A DNA stretch of 64,000 nt, taken from NCBI RefSeq assembly GCF_000003815.2, contig NC_049985.1, positions 25,376,962-25,440,961 on the forward strand. Reading direction: 5' to 3'. Under the pieces are notes generated by a model that ran no database searches, was not told the origin of the DNA, and saw only the letters and a list, made by a program, of their open reading frames with translations. Both the position numbers and the translations under genes were made by a program. Within the stretch, counting starts at the first letter, position 1, and each line of letters begins with the position of its first letter. This DNA is from Branchiostoma floridae. Lineage: Eukaryota; Chordata; Leptocardii; Amphioxiformes; Branchiostomatidae. Below, in pieces: positions 36,167-60,100 of this stretch.

Positions 36167-39100
36167 CTGGGGAGAGGAGAAAAAGGGAGTTTCCACACAC
36201 TCATCCTATTACACTCTAACTTACAGTGTTATCTGTACTAGTGACCACCTATACATCAGGACCACTTGGGTATCATGGCCCATTTTGGGTATCATGTTGG
36301 TCCCATTTTGGTGGATTATTTGTCTCATAAACCAAATCATTTGGAATCCTGTCTATAGTGAATACCTATCTTATGTGACCATTTCTTTATTCCCTAAGGT
36401 GGTAGATGGACACAAGTTTGACTGTATAGAAATATATCATTTTTGTACAAAAACTAGATGTCATGGAATCATACATGAGCAGTACAGTCCAAGTACCAAG
36501 TATCGAAAAAACATGTTTCTACTTTGATAGCTTGTACAATCTGGTGAAACACACAAGTTTTTATTTGACTGGCTTGAATGGTCTGTGAATAATCTCTTCA
36601 GGTCCGAAAATCACTGGGTACTGACAACTTGAAGGTTCTTTATTTACAAACAGGATCTATATACATGTAGCCGTTGATTGTATGTAGATGCTGGTTGTAA
36701 CTAAATGACCTTACAATCCAGTAGCTTCAGGTGTTCAGTCACAGATTTTTACATACAAAGTTCAACAGTTTTTTTACAAGCAATGTTCAACAGTTACTTA
36801 AGACACAAAGGTTCAGTCACAGATTTTTACATACAAAGTTCAACAGTTTTTTTACATGCAAAGTTTAACAGACACAAAGCAAAGAGGAGGTAAAGACAGT
36901 CTGTAGGTCGGGAAGGGTACCCCATGGCCAGCGCGTAGATGTCTGGTCTCTTCTCCTTCTCTTCCTGTCGGATTTTGTCCACGCGGCGCTCCAGAGCCAG
37001 CGCCAGGTTCTGCACCATGGGGTAATACTGGAGGATCTGGGGAAAAAGGAAACATTTCATACATGTACCAAAATTTAGGAAAAGAGGGAAACATAATGAA
37101 ATCCCACTGGTTCAATCTGTACTTTTCACAGTATTCATGTGATTAACCAGTTGGGTCACTTTTATTCTTGATCTGGATATATACAATACCCCTTTGTTGC
37201 TTGTTCCTCAGAAGTTTAGTGACCCTCTTTCTGAACTTGGCCACGTCTGGTATTGTGTTAGTTGTATATGAATGAATTTTATTGCTCAACGATTGCACAA
37301 GGTACAATGTATAGCAACCAACAATGACTAATAGCTATACAGACAATAGTAATACATACAGGGCTACATACAGAACAACAAAATTTTATCGATAATAGTA
37401 CAGTTATGTATGAGTGATCTGGTCTAACATTTGGAATACAGTATAAAGAAACTGACCTACGTAGATAGATATATGAGATGAACATGTTAGCAGTGTATGG
37501 AAGATATCGTTCTGTGTACCAGTAAGAGAGTAGTGTTTTTTGGTTCTAATGTTCTTAAACAATGTTTCTCTCTCTTTATTGTAAGTAGGACATTGTATAT
37601 GACTGTCACAGCAGACTCCAATCCAGAACTGTTCTTAGGAAATATGAGTGTAAGCAGCAATCTCTTTGTGTTTGTACAAGGTAAAATGATTGTAGCGCGA
37701 TTGGCGTGGGCTGGGCTGGAAGTAAGTATTGACCGGAGGCACTGACCAGAATGAAAGAAAGCGATTGGTTGTGACTCACTTACCTTGGTGAGGACAATGA
37801 GTGTGTTCCTGATCTGTACATAGTCCTGGGACTCCAGGCAGATCACCAGGGCCTGTAGGGGGACAGAGTCAGTTTTCGTTTGTTTCAAGTCTTCCTCTGA
37901 CAATGACAATAACGCAGGTGAAACAGGACACTTAATTTACCATTTTGGCCATGAGGCAACGTCAGTGAAAATAGCTAATTAGGCAGCTACAATTCCATTA
38001 ACAGGCGGTGTGTCTAACTCCTGTGATAATGAGTACAATTACAATGGTAATGCCAGATTTTTTTTTCAAATGCCTCGTTAAAGAGAGGCGCAAATGGCAG
38101 CTTTTTCAAAAGCACTTGTTTATTGTTGAACACGAAAAGGCACAAGACACAGTGGTGATGAACTGGGCTCCCTAATGGAGCTACTGTTTGAAAGTTTAAA
38201 GAATGAATATAATAAATAAAGAACACTTCACCCTTGTGAGTTTGAACTGCCACTTGTGACAGACGTGTCTGAAGTTCTCATAGTCCAGTTGGTCAGCCTT
38301 GCTGCTGCTGCCTGCTCCTGATGCTCTCAGTACTGTCACAAACCCAGGGTAACCCCAACACTCCTAAACACAAATAAACAAACAAACAACAAACAAACAT
38401 TGGTTATAGTACTGTCACAAACCCAGGGTAACCCCAACACTCCTGAACAAAATAAAATTAGTTCTTTAATTAAGTCCTTACCATACAAGATGTTGCATAA
38501 GATGGTATTCTAGTCTGCCTCAAAACTTTGTGTTATCACTCAATAGTGAGGAAATAGTCAACTGTTCAACTTCCAAACTGTTTCCCAAATGCTGAGTTGC
38601 AGGCAATATGTCTTCTTCAACTTCAATATGCTGAAGGCTCTGACACAGATTTGGGTCAAGGGTATTTTTGTTGAAGACGGGATGGTTGCTTTTCTTTCTT
38701 TTTTGTTTTGATGTGGTTCATTGTATTTGTGTAAGAGAGGGAGAGAGAGAGCCCAGCTCCTCAAGGGCATGTACCAATTCTACCTTTGCCAAAAGGGTAT
38801 ACTTTGGGTGTGTTTGTCATTTTGTGTGTGTGTTTGTGTTTGTGTTTGTCTGTAAAAACCATAACTCGAGAAGCCTTTAATGGATCATGATGATGTTTGA
38901 TAAATGGGTAGGGGTCAGGAAAGTATGATTTGGCTAGTGGTCAGACTCACAACCTACCAAATGCAAGGCAAACACTCTTCTCACACCTTACTTTTAAATT
39001 ACAGATAACAAGCACATAAATCCGGCTTTATGTCAAAGATAACAGACCTTCTCGTAGATGGCTTTGTCGCTGTGCCACCTCATGACCGTTTCCAGCATGG

Positions 39101-57100: not shown

Positions 57101-60100
57101 CGTCGAACCACCTCACTTTGGGGTCCTTAACCATGTAAATCCCCATAGGCGAAAAACTGTGTTCTGAGACCTTCAACACATGTTCAGGCACAACACTTGG
57201 CTGCAAAAGACAACAATAATAGCTCTTACAAGTTACAACAGAATATTCAGGCACTGCTCCTCTGAAACATCATCTGAAAAGTTAAACAACACTTGACTTC
57301 TAAATGTACGACTAGCAGGAAAATCAGGAGAGCTAAAGAAGAAATCTTGTGAACGTACCATGCAGGCTGACACCAGTGATATGAAGCGTTCTCTCTGTGC
57401 CTTGTCTTCTTGGCAGATGGTGTCCATATCTGAAAGTAGTTAGTACAATTGTTTATAAAAATGTTTCACACATAAACATTAAATTACTATCAAAATATTA
57501 AAAACATTACAAAGGCAACCCAAAAAAGAACAACTGGTTAGAAATATGTTTTGTTGTCATAAGAATGTTGGTTACTTATTTCCAGAAAAAATCATGACGA
57601 CCCCCCAACCCCATCTTCAAAATTGTCCTTGCAGTTCAAAAAGGCTGCTAGGGGGCCAAAGCTACATCACTTACTCTCTGCCTCAAGAGCTATCTACTAC
57701 ACAAAAATCCCCACCATCGCATGTCCAGAACAAGAGATACAAAAAGTAGAATTTCTGCTGCAGTACCAAAGAAAGCCGCTAGGGAGGTGTATTAAAAATT
57801 ATGAAGATCTACCCATATATCAAATAATATCAAGACAATTTATCTAGGCCTTCTTGAGTTATCATATTGAATCAGACACACTCAGTGCTCAAAATACACA
57901 CTTGCACACAAACGCAACCATGTTTTGCTTGGCGCAACTTAATTTCAAACCCAGGTAGCACAGTGTGCATTTGGAACACAGATTTTCCCCCACCAACGTG
58001 CATAAGCTTTTGTATTTATTTCTTGATAAGATAGAACATAAGTAGCTACATGTAACTAGAAGAAAAAATAACATCAAGTCGCTGATTTGAAGAAAGTAAT
58101 AACTTGGAGGTGGGGCAACCTGAAATGTTGATGGCACAACCTGGCTTTTGACTCAGGTTGCCACTGGCTGAAAACAGTATTTCGAGCACTACACATACAA
58201 AAACATAACCACCTTGGAAAAAAAAATCCAACAGACAGATTACACATGTACACAGCACAGAAGACAACAGAGCTACTGAATATATAGATGTAATTTGGCA
58301 CAGTGCAGCCAGACAGGATTGCAAACAGACCTATCTGCTGATTGAAACTGCAGCAGACACATGAAAACAACACACTGTCTTCTATCAAGGATTTTTTACA
58401 GTGCGGAGTTAGTTTTAGAGAATTTTACGTTAAAATGGGGTATTCGGAGGATTCTTGAGGGTAAAATTACCGCTATACAAATCACGGTTGAAGCTTAATA
58501 CTGTGGCCACATGGGACCTAGTGGCATCCCTGGTCAATGAGAGTTTAAAGCCAAAAGTGCATTGTTCTGTCTGTTTGTTTTTTTTCCAACTGACGGTTTG
58601 TAGATGGGACTAGTTTTCCATTACAGTATGTGACTACAGACAGTACAGTACTACGGTAAATGCATTTAAGTTCACTGGATGGCTCTACTGTGAAATCAAA
58701 ACCAACGTGACCATTCCGTTTTCCCGCTACAGCGAAAATTGAATCCCACAAACTTAAACGCATTTATTGCATATTGAAAAAAAAGTGCATCCCATAGCTT
58801 GCATATAGCATGATCTGCATAGAGAACGACACTCTCTATAGAATAAGAAATGACATTACACGAACAACACTACCCAGACACAAAATGTCAGAAATCAGAA
58901 CAGACAACCTACCTACGAGAGACAGGATATCGGCCATGATTGACGACAGGTCTCTCTTAACATCCTGCAAAATAATGTCAAGTCATAACATTGGTCAGCA
59001 ACAGTTTCAACTTTGAATTAGTACCACCTTTTCCTTATTCTTCAACATGAGGACATATTGATTGTACAAAAAGGTGCATAGATCATGGAGAATCTACACA
59101 AACAAATCACAAAATATGGTATACCGAACAAAAGATTCTTTGTTTTGACCTTTCACATCTTCTTCTTTGTTTGACTTTGGAATTTATCCGAACATTCGAA
59201 CAATCTATGAATTTAGTATCCATTCTCACTGAGATTTTTGTTTAATTCACAACATATTTGCTTATATAATATATTTTACAGCAGACAAAAATAAATGTCA
59301 TCCATTCAATCATATCGACATGGTCACCATCACCATCTTAGCGGGCTATAGGCAAACTGCTACATGTACAATATGTGTGCCTGGAAATGTTTAATTTCAT
59401 TACTGAATAGAGTGCTACAACAGTAGGTAAAGGTAAAGAGTGCTAAAACACAAATAACAGATCTAAAAAAATGTTTTTGGTGATACTTTTTAATAACTTA
59501 GATCTGAGTGTAAAAACCTCGACACCCGAAAACAACTTGCAAAATCTGTTAGCCTAATACTTTTGTAAAAGAATTCTTCTAATATTCACAAGTCTAGACC
59601 TTATAATAGTGGTAAACCTCCCAAGATTTTTGAGCATTTTTGGCATGTAAACTGTCATATACATAAAGTACATCCTGTTGAGAGTATGGTAGAATATGAA
59701 TAATACACATAATAAGTTACATCCTGTTCACAGTAGAGTAGAATATTGTAGATTCTTTGACCAGGAAGGAATTCTGGTTTCCAAATTGGACCACTCTTGA
59801 AATTCCTGCCATTTCTGGTCTGTGTGGGTATTCCAGAACCCTATATAGTCATACATAACTAAATGCCTTTCCATACGCTACTTCAATCTTGAATTGAATG
59901 TGTTCATATTTTGTGCCAACAGTACTTCTTCATTCTTAGCAATAGGTTATTGTATAGTATAGTATAGTATATGTAAGGTCAAGTTTGGACAAGAACCCAG
60001 AACTCCATTCATATGCTACCGATTTTGTGCTCTATAGAAATGCACTTTACACACGACTTTCTTGACTTTGATCACTAAGGTGCAAATAAGTGCCTAGCTT

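Follow-up and report, generated by a model that had tools for sequence, protein, structure and literature searches.

Why do the introns of a gene carry extra copies of the splice acceptor that lies at their own end, and does the gene make use of them? The question is raised by a lancelet gene on the minus strand of the window (the whole 64,000-bp stretch analysed here, positions 25376962-25440961 of its contig, within a 513-Mb genome), which a phmmer search with the typed, concatenated exon peptides identified as THOC2 (PDB 7znk_B, 1361.6 bits). THOC2 splice sites were located by phase and a simple matrix, with boundaries near the 5' and 3' ends being approximate, and exons were numbered in transcript order, which agrees with the exon list provided that three exons lie 5' of the exon at 60.7 kb. 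The acceptor together with 30-46 exon bases is duplicated upstream of four exons, 6, 13, 14 and 24, in introns of 694, 1125, 793 and 684 bp, respectively. There is one extra copy for exon 6, three for exon 13, two for exon 14 and one for exon 24, and both the four introns and these copy numbers, first proposed in a first-pass annotation, were borne out by a duplication detector and, for exon 13, by Tandem Repeats Finder. Four of the copy starts given there were exact (57200, 50630, 50700 and 50770), while 38441, 49734 and 49885 were off by one or two bases from the positions that we obtained, 38442, 49735 and 49883. The features are as follows:

56540..56664, minus strand: THOC2 exon 6 (real), first exon base 56664
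57170..57247, minus strand: duplicate of the acceptor region of exon 6 at offset 536, with the copied exon starting at 57200
56720..57165, unstranded: dispersed repeat of high copy number separating the acceptor of exon 6 from its duplicate, with at least 40 other genomic matches
50397..50560, minus strand: THOC2 exon 13 (real), first exon base 50560, first 46 bases inside the array
50514..50796, minus strand: tandem array of four 70-bp units at exon 13, the real acceptor plus copies at 50630, 50700 and 50770
49417..49603, minus strand: THOC2 exon 14 (real), first exon base 49603
49574..49910, minus strand: three diverged exon-14 units at offsets 132 and 148, comprising the real acceptor and the copies that start at 49735 and 49883
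38232..38363, minus strand: THOC2 exon 24 (real), first exon base 38363
38408..38452, minus strand: duplicate of the start of exon 24 at offset 79, with the copied exon starting at 38442

The detector, which was ungapped and local (score at least 17, offsets 12-1500), reported 100 segments for the window versus 0 in each of three first-order Markov sequences, and it recovered the exon-24 pair, which had escaped a blast self-comparison. Structured RNA and tRNA genes were also searched for in the window, with no Rfam match at the gathering score and no tRNA gene reported by ARAGORN. The window further contains an RCC1-repeat protein gene (8557-10257, minus strand) with no junction duplication in the four predicted exons examined, a tandem array at 17279-20089 (376-bp unit, 7.5 copies, 99% matches) in which a minus-strand reading frame recurs, with a length of 134 codons in four of the units, and a plus-strand reading frame at 22314-22986 that we take to resemble a non-LTR reverse transcriptase. 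A 27-bp minisatellite of 11.6 copies (54122-54439) lies in the THOC2 intron between 53899 and 54638 and touches no junction.

The duplicated units of exons 13, 14 and 24 are tandem or near-tandem and measure 70-150 bp. Tandem Repeats Finder described the exon-13 array (50514-50796) as having a period of 70, 4.0 copies and 97% matches, each unit being composed of 24 intron bases and 46 exon bases. The real exon 13 has a donor-like CAG/GTAAG 16 nt past its acceptor, and every unit therefore contains a 16-nt AG-to-GT segment. The outer edge of this array is adjoined by a high-copy repeat (50786-51000), of which 40 of the 42 matches listed lie elsewhere and start at or near the array edge. The exon-14 units include a fragment of a dispersed repeat, with 26 matches comprising the query itself, one local match and 24 elsewhere at 75-91% identity, and the exon-24 copy is weakly alike to the real site on its intron side. 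The two members of the exon-6 pair (56634-56714 and 57170-57247) are 84% identical by blast, lie 536 bp apart and are not tandem in their present form; the repeat between them has at least 40 other matches in its own genome, 92-98% identical, among the best 40 of 897 candidates scored. The simplest history would be that this pair was originally tandem and was later divided by insertion of the repeat.

Minisatellite-like duplications of intron/exon boundaries have already been named in amphioxus, as mirages (PMC3087553); the THOC2 arrays fit that description, and the phenomenon itself is already known. A dispersed repeat touches, lies in or splits three of the four THOC2 mirages. Described cases are Adh3, the globins BflGb6 and BflGb9, troponin C and PGBD5 (PMC3087553, PMC3902484), the second paper adding PGBD5, whose own splicing it leaves unconfirmed by mRNA, and citing troponin C. 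For the mirages tested so far, splicing is reported to be undisturbed, with no aberrant mRNA (PMC3087553, PMC3902484), and the Adh and TnC mirages in particular are said to yield none (PMC3902484). In the part of this literature covered here, mirages are reported gene by gene, with no genome-wide count.

We put a probability of roughly 85% on the reading that the THOC2 copies are mirages in this sense, that is, mostly tandem local duplications that happened to span acceptors, are tolerated under exon definition and are removed with the intron. The genome seems to gain local duplications often, and some of these would by chance cover a splice acceptor. Where flanking introns are large, splice sites closest to each other across the exon are preferred (PMC9225289). 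Tolerance of the copies would then follow from the length of the introns and from the pairing of the nearest sites across a complete exon: an upstream copy is more distant from the donor and is missing the remainder of the exon, and would therefore be expected to lose to the real acceptor. The downstream real acceptor would win and the upstream copies would leave with the intron, so that exon-definition pairing could explain their tolerance without any function. Splicing would thus ignore the copies, which we infer to be near neutral.

The rate of such copies in other genes bears on whether THOC2 is special. The comparison sample consisted of twenty 10-kb pieces spaced evenly along the same chromosome plus 20 kb beside the window, and was extended by 14 short loci from repeat searches and by a further 20 kb flanking the window and the initial pieces. 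Exons were called with a home-made finder, for which training on THOC2 was followed by retraining on these pieces; those outside THOC2 are accordingly predictions, in a small sample. With nothing dropped, 6/32 predicted acceptors and 3/32 donors of the first set lay within a local duplication, two of the exons with matches being repeats themselves. Eight predicted exons, two of which had shown matches in this first count, were dropped by hand after it: L019:685 and L019:1320 as coding repeats (presumably TPR-like), L038:5490 as a minisatellite, L014:39 and L036:3623, which we take to be reverse-transcriptase-like, and L031:3262, L031:555 and L023:1908 as repeat-like by eye. After these drops and with the further loci, copies were carried by 4/41 acceptors and 2/41 donors at an exon score of at least 18, which amounts to 6/82 junctions (~7%, 95% interval 2.7-15%). 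The THOC2 proportion (4/24 acceptors) did not differ significantly from that elsewhere (4/41; P=0.45), at numbers at which a two-fold difference would be undetectable. Thus, THOC2 is not clearly special in its copy rate, in a test that is low in power.

The duplications, their repeat structure and the similar structures at junctions of other genes are all directly visible in the DNA. Junction arrays were found in EngB/GTPBP8-like, KIDINS220-like (named via a neighbouring exon), phosphoglucomutase-like, myotubularin-like (MTMR6-9-like), PDE2A-like and SNF2-like genes, on pieces that had not been selected for arrays. Searched against the PDB, the exons of the phosphoglucomutase-like gene returned only an unrelated designed repeat protein, and the tentative name of this gene therefore comes from a weak Pfam match below the cut-off. 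An acceptor mirage in the EngB/GTPBP8-like gene (L017:6568-7302) contains seven additional copies, spaced 88-98 bp apart. At L002:1970-3229, in a gene which we take to be SNF2-like, a donor-side mirage repeats the exon end plus GTAAA many times, with nearest spacings of 28-50 bp. Since similar copies occur in unrelated genes, neutral repeat growth is more likely than a control switch of THOC2. The first-pass annotation had offered both an origin by slippage or repair and a decoy or poison role that tunes THOC2; the tandem and near-tandem units agree with the former, while the arrays in other genes count against the latter.

The strongest competing reading, which is compatible with the mirage explanation, holds that local duplication in this genome preferentially strikes acceptors, for instance through slippage at the polypyrimidine tract or transcription-linked DNA damage. 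Here the results were mixed. Counting a junction as matched when the duplication extended ±12 around it, 3/20 acceptors and 0/19 donors of THOC2 were matched versus 4.6% of intron positions, a background that falls to 2.4% once the junction arrays are excluded; exon 24 was not counted under this rule because too few of its intron bases match. In a larger position-based test, 8/50 acceptors were matched, compared with 8.6% of the interior of introns (P=0.06); a stricter overlap gave 6/50 versus 7.6% (P=0.18), and donors stood at 1/50 under both overlap rules. All these position-based tests were judged poorly suited because each array copy counts as background. When events were counted instead, 23 clusters in eight genes including THOC2 spanned 8 acceptors and 1 donor versus 1.64 expected each (acceptors P=0.0003), a count biased by the inclusion of THOC2, which was chosen because of its arrays. 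Without THOC2, the outcome depended on the exon score: 5 acceptors and 3 donors versus 1.52 expected at a score of at least 14 (59 exons; P=0.019 and 0.20), 4 and 2 versus 1.15 at 18 (41 exons; P=0.03 and 0.32), 2 and 2 versus 0.92 at 22 (29 exons; P=0.24 each) and 2 and 2 versus 0.82 at 26 (24 exons; P=0.20 each). For all junctions at a score of at least 18 there were 6 versus 2.30 expected (P=0.03), and pooled acceptors (8/65) did not differ significantly from pooled donors (2/65; P=0.096).

The event counts, with and without THOC2, thus speak for targeting of acceptors, whereas the position-based tests, the loss of significance at higher exon scores and the pooled comparison speak against it. 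Furthermore, selection preserves the exonic part of a junction copy, so junction pairs would probably stay detectable longer than intron-only pairs, and this longer visibility could by itself produce a modest acceptor excess. Random placement may not explain everything; we regard targeting as a tentative possibility, with the odds leaning against it. Somewhat more doubtful still is the broader proposal that lancelet genes gain acceptor duplications several-fold above chance, with about 1 acceptor in 10 carrying decoy copies.

A second alternative is that the copies act as decoys or poison acceptors, which would lower or tune THOC2 output via premature stops and decay. In its favour, on our own matrix the copies score 2.6-5.1 versus 3.8-4.4 for the real acceptors, and the exon-24 copy, as had been claimed from the first reading, is stronger than the real site (4.9 versus 3.8). 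Six of the seven copies also reach an in-frame stop within 45 nt, the first stop in the THOC2 frame falling at +45 in all three exon-13 copies, at +37 in both exon-14 copies and at +36 in the exon-24 copy, which upholds the early stops first noted for these three exons. However, the exon-6 copy stays open to +234, and neither the exon-14 copies nor the exon-24 copy have a donor-like site (score at least 2) ahead of the stop. The exon-13 copies offer 16-nt candidate cassettes only, and the exon-6 copy has a donor at +84 without a stop before it; it can be read as a putative 84-nt in-frame segment up to this donor-like site (score 3.7), and a Pfam search with the reading frame through the copy and part of the repeat returned nothing. 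A cassette combining acceptor, donor and added stop was found in no THOC2 copy. An AG is retained in 7/7 copies, as first remarked, but carries little weight (P about 0.21), because it is what the identity of the copies to the real sites would predict; selection for AG in each copy was rejected on this ground, the observation being uninformative. The occurrence of similar structures in unrelated genes and the reports that published mirages give no aberrant mRNA (PMC3087553, PMC3902484) also argue against a poison role, and as judged from sequence a THOC2-specific role of this kind is unsupported and, in our view, improbable.

Least probable of all is an artefact in which the arrays were misassembled or stem from two haplotypes: published mirages are reported to vary in copy number among haplotypes, and one to have been misassembled in a draft genome (PMC3087553), but private changes distinguish both exon-14 copies and all but one of the three exon-13 copies, and the exon-13 array DNA matched its own locus alone among the best 40 of 1689 genomic candidates scored.

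As a finding about THOC2, the copies are ordinary; as a property of the genome, they are useful. If ~7% of junctions bear near-identical decoys, lancelets are a rich source of natural tests, both of exon definition and of the path by which mirages may lead to new introns. If the acceptor-gain proposal were true, the genome would be a natural experiment on how the spliceosome chooses among near-identical 3' splice sites, and would also show how new exons and introns begin.

Compared with known systems, the copies resemble poison exons, in which splicing is coupled to decay, in that use of six of the seven would bring an early stop, but differ in the exon-14 and exon-24 copies without a donor-like site before that stop and in the similar structures of other genes. 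The Rogers model proposes intron gain through tandem duplication of proto-splice sites (cited in PMC3087553); the likeness lies in duplicates that bear AG and GT, namely the exon-13 unit (AG, 16 nt, GTAAG) and the possible 84-nt in-frame cassette of the exon-6 copy, whereas THOC2 shows no sign of a fixed new exon or intron. Closest are the amphioxus mirages themselves: at exons 13, 14 and 24 THOC2 likewise has tandem repeats across the intron/exon boundary, and at exon 6 a tandem order would have preceded the present arrangement. THOC2 differs from them in having four mirages in one gene, one of them a pair split by a high-copy repeat.
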